DNA of 64,000 bases. Origin: Candidatus Kapaibacterium sp. (GTDB lineage: Bacteria; Bacteroidota; Ignavibacteria; Kapaibacteriales; NICIL-2). Location: NCBI GenBank assembly GCA_025055755.1, contig JANWWF010000001.1, positions 600,670-664,669 of the forward strand. Reading direction: 5' to 3'. This document shows, in pieces, positions 6,576 to 14,005 of the stretch (the stretch's first letter is position 1; every line of letters begins with the position of its first letter). The notes under the pieces were generated by a model that saw nothing but the letters and a program-made list of their open reading frames with translations, was not told the origin of the DNA and did not search any database. The position numbers and the translations under genes are program-made.

Positions 6576-7619
6576 ATGCGTGGAGTAAGTGTCGAGGAAT
6601 TTTTGAGCGCCGCTCAAAGCGGCCAATTAGCTGTTTTCGATGTCCGCAGTCCAGCGGAATTTGCGCGTGGCGCCATTCCTGGTGCCCATGCCCTTCCTCT
6701 CTTTAGCGACGAAGAGCGCCATCAGGTGGGTCTTACCTACCACAATGCAGGCCGACACGAAGCAATAAAGCGAGGGCTTGAAATTGTCGGTCCCAAAATG
6801 CGATGGTACGTCGAGCAGGTTGAACAGATTCTCCAGCCAGGACAGCAGGTCGGACTCTACTGCTGGCGCGGTGGAATGCGTAGTGCAGCGCTGGCATGGC
6901 TGTTGGGGTTCTACGGATTCGAAGTCATCACTCTCCGCGGCGGTTACAAAGCATTTCGGCGTTTTGTCCTGGAAGTAGTCGAGCAGCCGCGGCCATATAT
7001 CATCCTCAGTGGCATGACAGGCGCTGGTAAAACTTCCCTGTTACGCACTATTGCTTCGAAAGGGGAAGCAGTGGTGGATTTAGAGCACCTCGCTTCACAC
7101 CGTGGCTCCGTCTTTGGTGCCCTGGGCATGCCACCCCAGCCAACCCAACAACAATTTGAAAACATGCTTGCAGTAGAGCTGTGGAAACACCGCACTGCTG
7201 AGCGCGTGTGGATAGAGGATGAATCGCGTCAGATTGGCAATCTGTGCATTCCGCAGGGCATGTGGCTCCAGATGCGAGCTGCTCCGATTATCGCGCTCGA
7301 TGTACCTGTGGAGCAACGCCTCGAGCATCTCTGTGCAGAATACGGAAAGTATCCACCAGCACAGCTTGCTGCATGCCTGGACAAAATCCGCGGCCGGCTT
7401 GGTACAGAGCGCTGGTCTCGTGCACGCGCAGCGCTCGAGCAAGGCGATATTCGCGAGGTTGCTCGCATTGCCCTGGAGCACTACGACAAAGCCTACCGAC
7501 ACAGTTTACGCAAGCGCACTCATTTGGTACAGTGGATTTCCGTTTCCTCGGCTGACGATCCAGCATCTGCAGTGCTGGCAGTAGCTTCCGTTGCTGAACA
7601 GAGGTGCTACGCCGAATGA
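6576..7619 (+). CDS. mnmH: tRNA 2-selenouridine synthase MnmH/SelU
   Basis: This 347-residue protein has the two-part MnmH architecture. An N-terminal rhodanese domain carries the catalytic Cys96 in YCWRGGMRS, and a C-terminal P-loop domain carries GMTGAGKTS. The LEHLASHRGSVFG motif after the P-loop is characteristic. The enzyme converts 2-thiouridine at tRNA wobble position 34 to 2-selenouridine through a geranylated intermediate, using selenophosphate. SelD is not present in this window. The TGA overlaps the ATG of the following HAD-UbiA gene (ATGA), so it is probably the first or second gene of the arabinosyl-donor operon, with no obvious functional link. Confidence 0.95.
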   Translation: MRGVSVEEFLSAAQSGQLAVFDVRSPAEFARGAIPGAHALPLFSDEERHQVGLTYHNAGRHEAIKRGLEIVGPKMRWYVEQVEQILQPGQQVGLYCWRGGMRSAALAWLLGFYGFEVITLRGGYKAFRRFVLEVVEQPRPYIILSGMTGAGKTSLLRTIASKGEAVVDLEHLASHRGSVFGALGMPPQPTQQQFENMLAVELWKHRTAERVWIEDESRQIGNLCIPQGMWLQMRAAPIIALDVPVEQRLEHLCAEYGKYPPAQLAACLDKIRGRLGTERWSRARAALEQGDIREVARIALEHYDKAYRHSLRKRTHLVQWISVSSADDPASAVLAVASVAEQRCYAE

Positions 7620-9040
7620 ATTCGCCAGACAAGCAGATTCTGGTTGTTGATCTCGACGAGACCCTACTCCGCACCGATCTTGTCTGGGAAGCACTCACCG
7701 AACTTGCGCGATGTAAGCCCTACCTTCTGCTCCTTGTCCCGCTGGTACTCTTTCGCGGCAGAGCTGCACTTAAACAATGGCTTAGCCGCCAAGTGAGGTT
7801 AGAGCTCCATCAAATGCCGCTCAACGAAAGCGTACGCGCGTTTGTTGCCCATGCAAAAGCACAAGGGCGTACTGTCGTGCTTGCTACGGCAGCACATCGG
7901 TGCTGGGTTGAGCCATGGGCTCGTGAGCTTGGCTACTTTGACCACATCTTTGCAACTGAGCACATCAATCTCCGCGGGCGGGCTAAACTTGAGCGCCTGA
8001 AGCAGGAATTTCCCGCCCAGCATTTTGACTACATCGGCAATAGCGGTGCTGACGTCCCCCTTTGGCGTGCAGCGACAAATGCCTACATTGCAGGTAACCC
8101 GCGCCTGTACCAACACCGCATCGGCAAAGCATTCGCTGGTGTGTTCCCTGTCGAGCGTGCTCGGTTCGGTGATTGGCTCGGCTTGCTCCGCATTGAGCAG
8201 TGGAGCAAAAATTTGCTCGTCTTTGTCCCGCTGGTCTTAGCCCATCGCTTGGGAGAAGCAACGGCGCTAATCAACACAGCAATCGCTGGACTTCTGCTGA
8301 GCATTATAGCTTCTGCACTATACGTTCTCAATGATTTGCTCGACCTTCCCCGCGATCGACTGCATCCGACAAAGTCTGCACGACCTCTCGCCCGCGGAAT
8401 CATCCCTCTCCGCCATGCATGGATTGCCGTTGGAGCGGGCGTTGTTATTGGTGGAGGGTGGTGTGCTGTCCTCCTTCCGCCTGCAGCCGCATTGTTGATT
8501 GCGCTCTATGGCACAACCGCACTTGCCTATTCACTACGTCTCAAGCATCTGGCAGTTGTGGATACGTTTGTCCTTAGCGCGCTTTACACTCTACGGATCC
8601 TCATTGGGGCAGCAGCAAGTAGCACACCCGTTTCGCCCTGGCTAATCGGCTTTGCTCTTACTTTCTTTACTGGACTGGCACTCCTTAAGCGCCACTCTGA
8701 AACGGTGCACCTACGAATGAATAACTATCGCATCGAGGATAACCGACCCTACACTGATCGCGATGAACCATTCTTACTTGCTACTGGCATTGCAACCTCT
8801 ACCATGGCAATCGTGATTTTGACAGTGTACCTGACCAGTGAGCGCGTGCGAACGCTCTACAGCCACCCAGAACGCCTTTGGCTTGTGCTGCCGCTACTAT
8901 TGTTTTGGCTGATGCGTATGTGGCGACTATCTGTCCATGGTCAGCTAACAAGCGACCCCCTTTCTTTTGCTCTCCGCGACCGTATCAGCCTTACAATCGC
9001 TGCAGTGCTGTTTATCCTGGTCGTTGCTGTCGCTCGCTAA
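7616..9040 (+). CDS. HAD phosphatase-UbiA prenyltransferase fusion (polyprenyl-P phosphoribosyltransferase type)
   Basis: This 474-residue fusion has an N-terminal HAD domain with DLDET near residue 13 and the late acidic motif GNSGADVPL. The C-terminal half is a multi-spanning UbiA domain with NDLLDLPRDRLHP, RPLARG, and YSLRLKHLAVVD followed by LRILIGAA. These UbiA motifs resemble decaprenyl-phosphate 5-phosphoribosyltransferase (Rv3806c type) rather than quinone enzymes. The likely reaction joins PRPP to polyprenyl phosphate, with the HAD domain a good candidate for removing the 5-phosphate. The following DprE1- and DprE2-like genes support this. I chose ATG 7616, which overlaps the mnmH stop and has GAGG upstream; a GTG at 7604 is possible. 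Confidence 0.85.
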   Translation: MNSPDKQILVVDLDETLLRTDLVWEALTELARCKPYLLLLVPLVLFRGRAALKQWLSRQVRLELHQMPLNESVRAFVAHAKAQGRTVVLATAAHRCWVEPWARELGYFDHIFATEHINLRGRAKLERLKQEFPAQHFDYIGNSGADVPLWRAATNAYIAGNPRLYQHRIGKAFAGVFPVERARFGDWLGLLRIEQWSKNLLVFVPLVLAHRLGEATALINTAIAGLLLSIIASALYVLNDLLDLPRDRLHPTKSARPLARGIIPLRHAWIAVGAGVVIGGGWCAVLLPPAAALLIALYGTTALAYSLRLKHLAVVDTFVLSALYTLRILIGAAASSTPVSPWLIGFALTFFTGLALLKRHSETVHLRMNNYRIEDNRPYTDRDEPFLLATGIATSTMAIVILTVYLTSERVRTLYSHPERLWLVLPLLLFWLMRMWRLSVHGQLTSDPLSFALRDRISLTIAAVLFILVVAVAR

Positions 9041-9043
9041 TCT

Positions 9044-10324
9044 ATGCGGCTTGAAAGCTGGACGTCTCTTCCTCGATCGCAGGTGCAGGATTATCGGCAC
9101 TACTACTGGACCGACGAAGACCCCTTTCGAAACGCAGGTTCCACCCTTCTTGCTCGCGGCAATGGGCAGAGCTATGGCGATGTATGCTTGCCCTGTCAGC
9201 AAGCAGTAGTATGCACCCCCCTTGACCGCATCCTTGCGTTCGATCGCACCAGCGGCAGAGTGCGTGTCGAATCAGGCATCAAGTTATCCGAGCTGTTGGC
9301 AGTAACTGTCCCTGCTGGATGGACTCTGCCTGTGATTCCAGGAAGTGGTGCTGTTACTGTTGGCGGTGCAATTGCTAATGACGTTCACGGCAAAAACCAT
9401 CACTGGGCAGGGACATTTGGCTGCTGGATTGAACGCATCGAGCTTGTCCGCTCTGATGGCCGCTACCTGTGTACCCCAGAGGAACATCCGGAGCTATTTC
9501 GCGCTACCATCGGCGGTTTAGGATTGACAGGCATCATCACATGGGCAGAGTTGCAGCTGGTGCGGTGTTCCTCCGCATGGCTTACCGTCGAACGCTTCCC
9601 CTTTGCTACCCTGGATGAATTTTTCTGCCTAAGCGAGCAAGTGGAAGAACACGGTAACTACGTTGTTGGATGGTGCGATGTGTCCACTCCTGGCAAGTAT
9701 CGGGGAATTGTCTCTGTAGCACGATTTTGCGACGATGGTGATTTTTCCACGCCACCGCGTCACGTCCCGCTTTCACTTCCTCCAATGCCAGTATCTGTGT
9801 TTACACGCACAACAGTGCAACTAACATCCGCACTATACTACAGCACTATGCGCCGGCGAGTTCGACAGCGCATGCACTACACCGATGTCTTTTTTCCCCT
9901 TGGCAGGCTTCCATGGAATCGCTTGTTCGGACGTCGCGGTTTTTTCCAATTGCATGCAGTTGTCCCTCGAGCACTCGAACGGGAAGCAACCCATGCAATT
10001 TGCTCTCGACTTTGGCGGGCAAAGGTTCCTCTTCCTTTGTGTGTCCTCAAGCGCTTTGGAGCCCGCCCATCACCAGGCTTGCTTTCGTTCCCCATTGAAG
10101 GTACAAGCATTGCGGTGGATCTTCCAAACCATTCTCGGTCCGTCCAAGCTCTTGATGAAATCATCACCATGGTGGCCTCTGTCGGAGGGCGCATTTACCC
10201 TGCAAAGGATGCACACATGGCTTCCCATCACTTCCAGCAGATGTTTCCCCAGTGGCATCAAGTAGAACGCTTACGCGATCCCCGCTGTTGCTCGCAATTT
10301 TGGCGCCGTGTCACTTCATCCTAA
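9044..10324 (+). CDS. dprE1: DprE1-like decaprenylphosphoryl-ribose 2'-oxidase
   Basis: This 426-residue FAD-dependent oxidoreductase shows the FAD_binding_4 and ALO-type features of DprE1. The motifs are GNGQSYGD, TVGGAIANDVHGKNHH, GGLGLTGII and YPAKDAH. The last contains Lys388, which aligns with catalytic Lys418 of the mycobacterial enzyme. DprE1 oxidises polyprenyl-phospho-ribose at C2' as the first half of epimerisation to the arabinose donor. The residue exactly 31 positions before this Lys, equivalent to benzothiazinone-target Cys387, is Ala357. The gene starts 3 bases after the HAD-UbiA gene and is followed within 6 bases by the DprE2-like gene. Confidence 0.9.
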   Translation: MRLESWTSLPRSQVQDYRHYYWTDEDPFRNAGSTLLARGNGQSYGDVCLPCQQAVVCTPLDRILAFDRTSGRVRVESGIKLSELLAVTVPAGWTLPVIPGSGAVTVGGAIANDVHGKNHHWAGTFGCWIERIELVRSDGRYLCTPEEHPELFRATIGGLGLTGIITWAELQLVRCSSAWLTVERFPFATLDEFFCLSEQVEEHGNYVVGWCDVSTPGKYRGIVSVARFCDDGDFSTPPRHVPLSLPPMPVSVFTRTTVQLTSALYYSTMRRRVRQRMHYTDVFFPLGRLPWNRLFGRRGFFQLHAVVPRALEREATHAICSRLWRAKVPLPLCVLKRFGARPSPGLLSFPIEGTSIAVDLPNHSRSVQALDEIITMVASVGGRIYPAKDAHMASHHFQQMFPQWHQVERLRDPRCCSQFWRRVTSS

Positions 10325-10330
10325 CATCCC

Positions 10331-11083
10331 ATGCCTATAGACTCGGTTTTGATTGTTGGTGCTACCTCCGCCATTGCCCATGAAACAGCACGCGCACTTG
10401 TCGGGCGGACTTCACACTTTGTTCTTGCAGCACGCAATGCAGAGCACTTAGCTGTGGTCGCTGCTGACCTTCGCAATCGTGGTGCAAAAACGGTGCACAC
10501 GCTCCACTACGATGCCGAAAGCCACGTCCAGCGCGACCTTCTCGCAGAAGCAGCCGACAGCATCGGCACACTTCCGGATGCAGTGTTGATTGCCCATGGT
10601 GTACTCCCCCGTCACGAAGAAGTCGTGCACGATAGCAACGCGGCACGCTCGGTGTTGCAGATCAATACCGTTTCCGTGCTTGCTCTTTGCACCGACGTCA
10701 GTCGCCACTTTGAGCAGCGCGGCTCTGGATTGCTGGCTGTGATCAGCTCTGTTGCGGCTGACCGCGGACGTATGCAGAACTACCTGTACTCCGCATCAAA
10801 AGCTGCGCTGGACGTTTATCTGGACGGTCTCCGCTTACGATGGAAAACGCTTTCCCCTGCATTACGTGTGCTTACAATCAAGCCAGGATACGTCCGTACA
10901 CCGATGACAGCTCACCTAGAACACATGATTTTGCCTGCATCCCCTGACTCGGTAGGTCGCCGCATTGCTCGCGCTATGCTCCGAAGGAAAGGAGGACGCA
11001 TGTACGTTCCCTGGTGGTGGGCACTTGTCGCTGCAGTGCTCCGCCGCTTACCGGAGCCGTTTATGCTCCTGGTGCGGCAGTAG
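10331..11083 (+). CDS. dprE2: DprE2-like short-chain reductase
   Basis: This 250-residue short-chain dehydrogenase has the NAD(P)-binding motif VGATSAIA, a catalytic Ser (VISSVAAD) and YSASK. The C-terminal part (LRVLTIKPGYVRTPM, then a hydrophobic basic tail) matches decaprenylphospho-erythro-pentofuranosid-2-ulose 2-reductase. It should reduce the keto product of DprE1 to polyprenyl-phospho-arabinose. The gene lies 6 bases after dprE1, as the third member of a compact set. The 3' end is 23 bases from the convergent DUF2723-type gene, with no visible terminator. Confidence 0.88.
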   Translation: MPIDSVLIVGATSAIAHETARALVGRTSHFVLAARNAEHLAVVAADLRNRGAKTVHTLHYDAESHVQRDLLAEAADSIGTLPDAVLIAHGVLPRHEEVVHDSNAARSVLQINTVSVLALCTDVSRHFEQRGSGLLAVISSVAADRGRMQNYLYSASKAALDVYLDGLRLRWKTLSPALRVLTIKPGYVRTPMTAHLEHMILPASPDSVGRRIARAMLRRKGGRMYVPWWWALVAAVLRRLPEPFMLLVRQ

Positions 11084-11106: not shown

Positions 11107-12933
11107 TCAGGGCGAGTGCAATAGCCGGACAAGTCGCTCCTGTGCAGCGAAATTTGTACGGTCTAGAGCAAGTGCGGTGCGATAGCATTCGATTGCATCA
11201 GTTGGCTGCCTTGCAGCAAGTGCATCGCCAGTGCGAACGTATGCCCATGCAGCAAGAGCAAGAAGCCCACGGTCAAGGCGCTCGGTTGAATAGTGCAGTG
11301 CACCTTGCCGCAGAAGAGTAGGGTCAACCACCTTAGGTAGCGGCGGCACTGGACGCCCCGGGGATAGCAATGCCACTGTTGCGCCATATGGTGCTGTCGG
11401 ATAAAGTGCGGCAAATTCTGGCTCTGTCTCAAGCACCTCTGGCGTTGCAAAGGAGAAGCGCTCTGGATTTCGCTCCACAAACGCGCGAAGTAACGATACA
11501 AATCTCTGCTGAATGATGCCATAACGCTCTTTGGGCATGTTCCCAGACTCAAATTCCTCCAGCAACGGAAGGTAAGCAGCAATCTCTGTGGAACACCGCC
11601 GGATCGGCTCCCCGTACCAACGCTCCAGTTGCTTGAGATACCATGTCCGCCGCAGTAGCTCTTTTTCCACCAACACTATGTCGCGCCGATATCCTTCGAC
11701 CTGCTGCAGATACCAGAATGCAGAGCAGAAATGGTCCCATTGCTGGGAGAGCAAAATGCTTCCATTGGGCAGAGGATCGACAACCAAACGAACATATGCG
11801 CGCACAAGATGGTGCGCGTGCAGATCATTCGGCTTCCAATTCCACGCCAGGTACACTAAAGGTAAAAGCATCATCGCTACACGGAACAGCCGATATCTCC
11901 AAAGGGCGGCAATGCCTGTTGCTGTTGCAAATGTTGCGGCAATAAATGCCACAAGAAAGTATGGCTCGATATCGTGGATACTGTAGTTGATTACATACCC
12001 CACACACACCACCATTGCAAGCACAAGAAGAAGGGCAATTGCTCGAGCGCGCTTCCAGAGCTTCCATAATCCCCACACCGCAATAGGCACGGCCACATTC
12101 GGCAAAAGAAGCTTGCCGAACACCTCTAACTGTTGTCGTGCAGACCCTTGGAACATCCACACAGAGTACTGCTTACCAAGCACGTGGTAGAAAAACTTTT
12201 CCACGCTACGATGCACTTCCCCCCAGTTGAATACCGGCTCTGCCATGCTCCGGATGGGCAAGTATGCATAAAGTGCGCCACAGGCAATAACAATGCTGGC
12301 GGGAACAAGGAGTTGCCGCAAGCGCTGCCATAACGTTCCGGGAAGCTGAAAAAGAACAAACGCAAGCACACCGGGCACCAGCACAATTGTCGTCAAGTGA
12401 TTTGTAAAGCCCAACCCAAGGAAAAGGGCTGCCAGATGTAACTGATGTGGCAAGCGCTGCTGCCCCCATCGCACAAGCCAAAAAAAGACTGCAGCAACAA
12501 GAAGGAGCTGCAATGCGTGGACTTCCATGCTCAACGCTTGTGCCCACACGGTCCGGGCAACTGCAAACTGCATGGCTGCTACGGCCGCAACACTCCGCAC
12601 CCCTGCAAGGCCAAGCCGGCCTTTTTCTGCCCACACCAAATGCAACACACCACGATGCACCACCGCTACAGCTAGTGCACTTAGCACAGCCATAAGTACA
12701 TTCAGCCGTTCAATTGGTAACATTGGAAGAGGCAATTGCAGCCACAGATGCCCTATAAGCGTCAGAAGTGGGTAGCCCGTTGGATGGGCGACCCCAAGTG
12801 TTGAACACACCCCTGCTAATTCGCCACAGTCCGTGTAATACAAGTCTGGGACTGCTGTAAGCCGGTAAATCACTCCTGCTACACCTGCAACAACAGCAGT
12901 GTCAAGCCAGGTTTGCCAGAAGCGTTCGCGCAT
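11107..12933 (-). CDS. TMEM260/DUF2723-type membrane glycosyltransferase with C-terminal TPR
   Basis: Starting at ATG 12933 the product is 608 residues. The first loop carries the family signature YTDCGELAGVCSTLGVAHPTG, and many hydrophobic spans follow through the first 400 residues. A long soluble C-terminal part ends with a TPR-like repeat (DAIECYRTALALDRTNFAAQERL). The family (DUF2723, related to human TMEM260) contains GT-C protein O-mannosyltransferases that use lipid-phosphate sugars at the outer face of the inner membrane. The acidic pair in the first loop is the expected catalytic site. An upstream extension to 13095 overlaps rfbB and lacks family similarity. Acceptors are unknown. 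The adjacent dprE and distant polyprenyl-P-mannose synthase genes could supply donors. Confidence 0.82.
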   Translation of the reverse strand: MRERFWQTWLDTAVVAGVAGVIYRLTAVPDLYYTDCGELAGVCSTLGVAHPTGYPLLTLIGHLWLQLPLPMLPIERLNVLMAVLSALAVAVVHRGVLHLVWAEKGRLGLAGVRSVAAVAAMQFAVARTVWAQALSMEVHALQLLLVAAVFFWLVRWGQQRLPHQLHLAALFLGLGFTNHLTTIVLVPGVLAFVLFQLPGTLWQRLRQLLVPASIVIACGALYAYLPIRSMAEPVFNWGEVHRSVEKFFYHVLGKQYSVWMFQGSARQQLEVFGKLLLPNVAVPIAVWGLWKLWKRARAIALLLVLAMVVCVGYVINYSIHDIEPYFLVAFIAATFATATGIAALWRYRLFRVAMMLLPLVYLAWNWKPNDLHAHHLVRAYVRLVVDPLPNGSILLSQQWDHFCSAFWYLQQVEGYRRDIVLVEKELLRRTWYLKQLERWYGEPIRRCSTEIAAYLPLLEEFESGNMPKERYGIIQQRFVSLLRAFVERNPERFSFATPEVLETEPEFAALYPTAPYGATVALLSPGRPVPPLPKVVDPTLLRQGALHYSTERLDRGLLALAAWAYVRTGDALAARQPTDAIECYRTALALDRTNFAAQERLVRLLHSP

Positions 12934-12970
12934 CAACACGCAAGGATTGGTCCTACAGCCCAGACCAAAG

Positions 12971-14005
12971 CTACACTTGTGCCCCTTCTTGTAGGCGCCA
13001 ACTGTATTGCTGTTCGTAGTACCTGCGGTATTCTCCCGAACGAACAGACTCGATCCATGCACGATTGTGGAGATACCATTCAACCGTCCACGCAAGCCCT
13101 TCTTCGAAGGTCACCGTTGGTGTCCATCCCAGTTCCCGCTCTGCTTTCGTGCAATCAATTGCATACCGTCGATCATGGCCAGGCCGGTCCGGAACATGTC
13201 GAATAAGAGACTCCGGCTTGCCAAGGAGCTGAAGTATTGCTCGGACGACATCTATATTCCGTCGCTCTGAGCGCCCACCGAAGTTGTATACTTCGCCCAC
13301 CACACCCTGCTCATACGCTGCTACAAGTCCACGGCAATGGTCTTCGACATAAATCCAATCGCGCACTTGGTGTCCATCGCCGTACACAGGCAATGGTTCA
13401 TCCGCCAAGGCATTGGTTATCATAAGCGGGATGAGCTTTTCGGGGAATTGGTATGGACCGTAGTTATTCGAGCATCGAGCAATAATCGCAGGCATGTTAT
13501 AGGTATGCACAAATGCGCGCACCATGCAGTCGGCAGCAGCTTTCGAGGCTGCATACGGCGAATTCGGCTTCAGGGGCGATTCTTCGGTAAAAGGAGGATC
13601 ATCTGGCCCAAGTGAACCATACACTTCGTCTGTTGAAACATGCAGGAACCGCTTAATGCCGTAGGCGCGTGCTGCTTCCAGCAAGACAAGCGTTCCCCGA
13701 ACATTCGTTTCGTAGAACGGTGCCGCCGACAATATTGAGCGATCAACGTGGCTTTCCGCCGCGCAGTGAATGATACCCTCGACGGCATATTCCTCAAGCA
13801 AGCGAGTTACAAGCTGAGCATCCTCGATACGGCCGTGTACAAACACATAGCGGGGGTCTTGTTCGACGTCGCGTAGGTTCTCCAAATTTCCCGCATACGT
13901 GAGGGCATCGAGATTGACCACGCGCCAATCTCGATGGTGCAGTATCCATCGCACAAGATTACTACCGATGAACCCTGCGCCCCCCGTCACCAGCACGGTT
14001 TTCAT
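12971..14005 (-). CDS. rfbB: dTDP-glucose 4,6-dehydratase
   Basis: This 344-residue extended SDR protein has GGAGFIGSNLVR at the N-terminus, the catalytic motif STDEVYGSLG, and YAASKAAAD containing the Tyr-x-x-x-Lys pair. The product RDWIYVEDHCRGL and GGRSERRNID segments are typical of RfbB. It converts dTDP-glucose to dTDP-4-keto-6-deoxyglucose, an early step to dTDP-rhamnose and related sugars. RfbA, RfbC and RfbD are not in the window. The ATG overlaps the stop of the upstream proline dehydrogenase gene (ATGA), and the next gene downstream starts 37 bases later. Confidence 0.95.
   Translation of the reverse strand: MKTVLVTGGAGFIGSNLVRWILHHRDWRVVNLDALTYAGNLENLRDVEQDPRYVFVHGRIEDAQLVTRLLEEYAVEGIIHCAAESHVDRSILSAAPFYETNVRGTLVLLEAARAYGIKRFLHVSTDEVYGSLGPDDPPFTEESPLKPNSPYAASKAAADCMVRAFVHTYNMPAIIARCSNNYGPYQFPEKLIPLMITNALADEPLPVYGDGHQVRDWIYVEDHCRGLVAAYEQGVVGEVYNFGGRSERRNIDVVRAILQLLGKPESLIRHVPDRPGHDRRYAIDCTKAERELGWTPTVTFEEGLAWTVEWYLHNRAWIESVRSGEYRRYYEQQYSWRLQEGAQV

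Follow-up and report, generated by a model that had tools for sequence, protein, structure and literature searches.

A compact three-gene cassette in a 64,000-nucleotide stretch of Candidatus Kapaibacterium sp. (contig JANWWF010000001.1; the whole stretch is called the window) very probably makes a lipid-linked D-arabinofuranose (D-Araf) donor, which would be flipped out and placed on an envelope glycan by a GT-C glycosyltransferase. The best reading of its product is undecaprenyl-phosphate-D-arabinofuranose, and we infer that arabinose is present in this organism's envelope. The cassette spans positions 7616-11083 of the plus strand and consists of a HAD-UbiA fusion (7616-9040), predicted from families, motifs and fold to be a polyprenyl-phosphate 5-phosphoribosyltransferase with an N-terminal phosphoribose 5-phosphatase domain, followed after 3 bases by a DprE1-like protein (9044-10324), a putative polyprenyl-phospho-ribose 2'-oxidase dependent on flavin adenine dinucleotide (FAD), and after a further 6 bases by a DprE2-like short-chain dehydrogenase/reductase (SDR; 10331-11083), predicted to reduce the 2'-keto sugar to the arabino form. 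The open reading frame coordinates, the family models and the best solved relatives in the PDB all bear out the initial annotation, which had described three adjacent genes matching a UbiA-type phosphoribosyltransferase, DprE1 and DprE2 in a Bacteroidota-type host; the host is a Kapabacteria/Chlorobiota-type bacterium. The arrangement is not due to chance, since the UbiA-DprE1 pair is kept across the order in nearly the same compact layout, and homology, active-site motifs, fold, tree, co-occurrence and gene context together give the pathway assignment good support.

Donor synthesis would take place at the cytoplasmic face of the inner membrane. By analogy with the homologous Citrobacter fusion, for which the first two steps have been shown, the UbiA half would join phosphoribosyl pyrophosphate (PRPP) and polyprenyl phosphate into polyprenyl-phospho-ribose-5-phosphate, and the fused HAD domain would remove the 5-phosphate to give polyprenyl-phospho-ribofuranose. 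The last two steps are modelled on the mycobacterial enzymes: the DprE1-like protein with FAD would oxidise C2 to a 2-keto intermediate, and the DprE2-like protein would reduce this ketone to the arabino epimer, polyprenyl-phospho-arabinofuranose. The product would then be flipped outward and a GT-C glycosyltransferase would put D-Araf on the envelope glycan, roles to which no gene is assigned. The same sequence of a PRPP-dependent synthase, its own HAD phosphatase and epimerisation by DprE1/DprE2 had been proposed earlier, and this part of the proposal stands on homology, motifs, fold, tree and context, while the novelty that it implied does not (see below).

The UbiA half (8186-9037, residues ~191-474) is a well-supported candidate, on sequence grounds, for a polyprenyl-phosphate phosphoribosyltransferase. 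It matches PF01040 at residues 206-444 of the fusion protein, and the score against NF006088, the NCBIfam model of HAD-UbiA fusions, is 491 bits (cut-off 351); the existence of this model makes the fusion an already established protein family. The best solved match of the UbiA half is Mycobacterium tuberculosis (Mtb) Rv3806c (PDB 8j8j; 2.4e-25 by sequence), which is also the top PDB match of the AlphaFold model of the fusion (mean predicted local distance difference test score 86.8, 8 sequences; 1.9e-9 by fold). Both cytoplasmic signatures of the class, ND..D...D in loop II and R..E in loop IV, are present: the protein contains NDLLDLPRDRLHPTK in loop II, with the motif NDLLDLPRD (N239, D240, D243 and D247), and KRHSE in loop IV (K358, R359 and E362), both kept in nearly all relatives, and the patterns NDxxDxxxDxxHPxKxxRP and KRxxE are conserved among homologues. 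These loop residues of UbiA are named as conserved for this enzyme class in PMC11127046.

Membership of the UbiA superfamily and weak matches to CtaB and UbiA models would also be compatible with a quinone, heme or other aromatic prenyltransferase lying beside unrelated genes, but this identity is rejected on the family scores, the tree and the organism's own paralogues, and we give it almost no weight. NF006088 outscores the CtaB model by 491 to 28 bits, and at 1e-20 it matched one of 14 control genomes, that of Corynebacterium glutamicum, a species with cell-wall arabinan. The host genome already encodes four further UbiA-family proteins, one CtaB-like and three MenA-like. Grouping of the UbiA protein with quinone or heme O enzymes, which had been named as the observation that would overturn the pathway, is not what we found: a maximum-likelihood tree (IQ-TREE) places the window protein with all HAD-UbiA relatives and Rv3806c, apart from the four paralogues, with support of 96/92, the paralogue branches being long and the bootstrap not fully settled.

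The N-terminal HAD domain reported earlier on the first gene (7640-8062, residues ~9-149) is recovered both by PF12710 (residues 10-149) and by NF006088. Motif I (VVDLDET, with D12 and D14 of DxD) and motif II (LATAA, T91) are invariant in the A1 alignment; motif IV reads GNSGAD (D146) in the window protein and begins with GN or GD by turns across the family, its second Asp being invariant. The HAD half of the AlphaFold model resembles phosphoserine phosphatases by PDB fold match. A role of the HAD domain in the same pathway is supported by two distant Bacteroidota (L084, L085) in which an operon of UbiA, DprE1 and DprE2 is followed by a free-standing HAD-IB phosphatase gene, and in five order members with UbiA-DprE1-DprE2 that lack the fused HAD the phosphatase must lie elsewhere. 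As proposed earlier, this domain would be a functional counterpart of mycobacterial Rv3807c; it is not a homologue of that protein, the two being unrelated according to PMC11127046.

Residues 32-414 of the second protein align with crystal structures of DprE1 in a PDB sequence search (3.3e-52), and the protein conserves the motifs GxSYGD, HGKNHH and AKD. The best solved relative of the third is DprE2 (21gq_C, 6.9e-21); this protein matches NF005489 with 222.8 bits and conserves the S-Y-K triad (SS..Y...K).

Distribution across the order is consistent with a pathway that is present or missing as a unit. In a sample of 41 genomes, comprising this one and 40 relatives, the UbiA query matches 30 and a strong DprE1 match (E < 1e-40) is found in 31; the two are found together in 30, neither is found in 10, and the remaining genome (86% complete) has a partial DprE1 only. 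The UbiA-DprE1 pathway is missing as a unit in the sampled families f4 and f7 and in a few single genomes. Of the homologous loci in the order, 29 were read over their full length; DprE1 lies nearby in 27 of these and DprE2 in 18. Co-occurrence together with the conserved neighbourhood indicates that the order keeps the pathway stably on its chromosomes. Across 296 genomes sampled from the phylum, fused HAD-UbiA proteins above the cut-off occur essentially only in this order and in family f28, where DprE1 and DprE2 follow HAD-UbiA in six of the eight loci read. A HAD-UbiA relative is also found in 89 plasmid records, none of them actinobacterial among the matches listed.

The neighbourhoods of homologous cassettes point to a glycan context. 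HAD-UbiA-DprE1 is flanked in L050 (8317-12926) by a 3-deoxy-D-manno-octulosonate (Kdo) cytidylyltransferase-like gene (PF02348) and lpxB (PF02684), a lipid A/lipopolysaccharide (LPS) setting, and in L037 (6515-9045) and L043 (10592-13106) HAD-UbiA adjoins UDP-galactopyranose mutase (Glf) and a Wzx-like flippase, which suggests a glycan holding both galactofuranose and arabinofuranose. These contexts hint at LPS or at a glycan that contains galactofuranose, but they are single cases. In the f28 loci L069 and L071 the cassette includes a GtrA-family protein, and a Rhizobium plasmid carries HAD-UbiA, GtrA, DprE1, DprE2 and two multi-transmembrane (TM) proteins in a row. Rv3789, the mycobacterial flippase candidate, is a GtrA-type protein, and we count the GtrA-family proteins inside the f28 and Rhizobium cassettes as support for an arabinofuranose donor. 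On a plasmid of Burkholderia stagnalis, the HAD-UbiA, DprE1 and SDR genes are packed closely in the same order, and GtrA lies downstream of them. In L072, from a second lineage of f28, the genes after HAD-UbiA encode a small ArnF-like protein and then a 612-residue protein with ~11 TM segments.

Several observations weigh against this reading of the cassette. The DprE1 equivalog model NF053785 gives 264.7 bits for the second protein, under its cut-off of 500, and the DprE2 equivalog model NF053786 gives 140.5 bits for the third, under its cut-off of 250, which is why both are named here as DprE1-like and DprE2-like and not as equivalogs. Phosphatase activity of the HAD domain is not guaranteed given the Asn that replaces the first Asp of motif IV, a change widespread in the family: GNxxxD instead of GDxxxD is also found in L030, L038, L066, L067, L069, L072, L092 and L093, including fusions accompanied by DprE1/E2. 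There is no DprE2-like gene near HAD-UbiA and DprE1 in L034, L035, L037, L039, L046, L050, L051 and L055; the reductase of these members may be encoded elsewhere in the genome or be a different SDR. The window cassette contains neither a flippase gene nor a specific GT-C gene; GtrA is absent from all 41 order genomes, in a search that matched 7 of 14 control genomes; and our searches tied no GT-C protein to the cassette.

The scores below the equivalog cut-offs also bear on an alternative in which the first two steps are the same and the redox pair yields another pentofuranose, such as the xylo epimer, or a ribose derivative. It would further be favoured by the column of Mtb DprE1 Cys387, which holds Ala in the window protein and Ala, or Thr in two members, across the order; by Citrobacter, where xylofuranose (Xylf) is made by way of a different, single SDR epimerase (PMC11127046); and by four betaproteobacterial loci and one zixibacterial locus in which UbiA-type genes occur without DprE1 in the stretch read. 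We nevertheless consider a product other than arabinose unlikely: the GxSYGD, HGKNHH and AKD motifs and the DprE1-DprE2 pairing are kept, the best solved match of the third protein is DprE2, and known Xylf systems use an ORF13-type epimerase, whereas arabinofuranose (Araf) systems use DprE1/E2 (PMC11127046).

Candidates for export and transfer of the arabinofuranose donor were sought in the same genomes. A GtrA flippase for the order cassettes was rejected on its absence from all of them. The GT-C families GT87 and PMT_2 show no pattern matching that of the cassette, and the host genome itself has two PMT_2 proteins and no GT87. Searches were also made with GT-C-like proteins encoded next to cassettes in other lineages: relatives gave no match to that of L068 and one weak match only to A2, and the host genome gave none to the SMR-like protein of L072, these negatives having no positive control. 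A convergent TMEM260-like GT-C gene (11107-13095, minus strand) is the next gene downstream of the cassette in the window, and a TMEM260-like gene is also next downstream in L030. Human TMEM260 is an O-mannosyltransferase, and were the donor used by this neighbour, the cassette would serve protein O-glycosylation. We regard this as very improbable and reject the TMEM260-like protein as a specific partner, since PF11028 is found in 41 of 41 genomes, the 10 that lack the cassette among them, and since the cassette has different neighbours elsewhere in the genus. Multi-TM proteins with no Pfam match occur beside Araf-donor cassettes in L093 (9150-12272, Rhizobium) and L084 (10147-11799, Bacteroidota); of ~510-550 residues, with a GT-C-like layout and weakly related to each other, they are candidate arabinosyltransferases of an unnamed family.

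The chemistry proposed for the window has several known counterparts. The mycobacterial decaprenyl-phospho-arabinose pathway (Rv3806c, Rv3807c, DprE1, DprE2) comprises the same four predicted steps with homologous UbiA, DprE1 and DprE2; it differs in using the separate Rv3807c as phosphatase where the window has a UbiA-fused HAD, and in the window the lipid is presumably undecaprenyl, no arabinogalactan machinery was found, and Ala occupies the Cys387 position of DprE1. The closest precedent for the fusion is ORF15 of the three-component pentofuranose system of Citrobacter youngae, likewise a Gram-negative host, in which an N-terminal HAD is fused to a UbiA-type phosphoribosyltransferase with the same N/D/D/D and R/E motifs (PMC11127046). 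According to Kelly et al. (2024; PMC11127046), the Citrobacter fusion was proven biochemically to make polyprenyl-phosphate-ribofuranose, most of its product keeps the 5-phosphate when the HAD nucleophile D18 is mutated, and DprE1/E2 versions were predicted in other bacteria; Bacteroidota are unmentioned in the main text. Citrobacter places ribofuranose, or Xylf made with the ORF13 epimerase, as a variable side chain of the O antigen, and its cluster includes a flippase and GT136 (PMC11127046). In the window DprE1 and DprE2 follow the fusion, neither a flippase nor a glycosyltransferase adjoins them, and retention of the cassette extends across the order. The pilin pathway of Pseudomonas paraeruginosa is likewise a Gram-negative route to a D-Araf donor with a UbiA-type enzyme (PMC12369383), described without a fused HAD for P. 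aeruginosa in PMC11127046; its acceptor is pilin, via TfpW, and its genes lie on a genomic island. D-Araf on Pseudomonas pilin had been described earlier still (cited in PMC12369383). The Burkholderia stagnalis and Rhizobium sp. K102 cassettes share the window's gene order but are plasmid-borne, with GtrA further downstream in the former, and inside the cassette, with the two multi-TM proteins after it, in the latter.

The initial annotation had implied that such a pathway is new outside Actinobacteria, which does not hold: Citrobacter has a fusion of the same architecture (PMC11127046), Araf pathways of this type are described for Pseudomonas pili (PMC12369383), and Burkholderia, Rhizobium and other Bacteroidota carry the cassette too. 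What appears to be new is its near-universal chromosomal retention through a Kapabacteria-type order, beside LPS or galactofuranose genes in some members. We tentatively propose, at less than even odds, that polyprenyl-phospho-D-arabinofuranose synthesis is a house-keeping trait of a whole Gram-negative order and not a variable serotype module, supplying an envelope glycan shared by many members, which may be LPS core or an arabino-galactofuranan, by way of a flippase not of the GtrA type and a GT-C enzyme. The lipid-linked arabinofuranose pathway, target of DprE1-directed tuberculosis drugs, would extend to Gram-negative bacteria of an order that has it almost throughout. Were D-Araf a constant part of the envelope there, the view of such sugars as mainly mycobacterial or as variable Gram-negative decorations would change, and the finding would point to flippase and transferase families that are still missing.

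Upstream of the cassette lies mnmH, encoding tRNA 2-selenouridine synthase (6576-7619, +; NF008750, 365.9 bits, cut-off 241). The fusion starts at 7616, within an ATGA that also holds the mnmH stop codon (7617-7619). As the same overlap occurs elsewhere in the genus, translation of the cassette is probably coupled to that of mnmH; the link is probably operonic only, mnmH itself lying outside the pathway. In 13 relatives (L036, L038, L041, L042, L044, L046, L048, L049, L052, L054, L056, L057 and L058) a gene for a GH57/branching-enzyme-like protein (PF03065 and PF09210, ~550 residues) immediately precedes the cassette, often together with genes for a TPR protein and a small DUF3467-like one; in the window it is not beside the cassette. 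Finally, Cys387 of Mtb DprE1 is the target of benzothiazinones, and the Ala or Thr found in this column suggests that the DprE1-like enzymes of the order should escape covalent trapping by drugs of this type.

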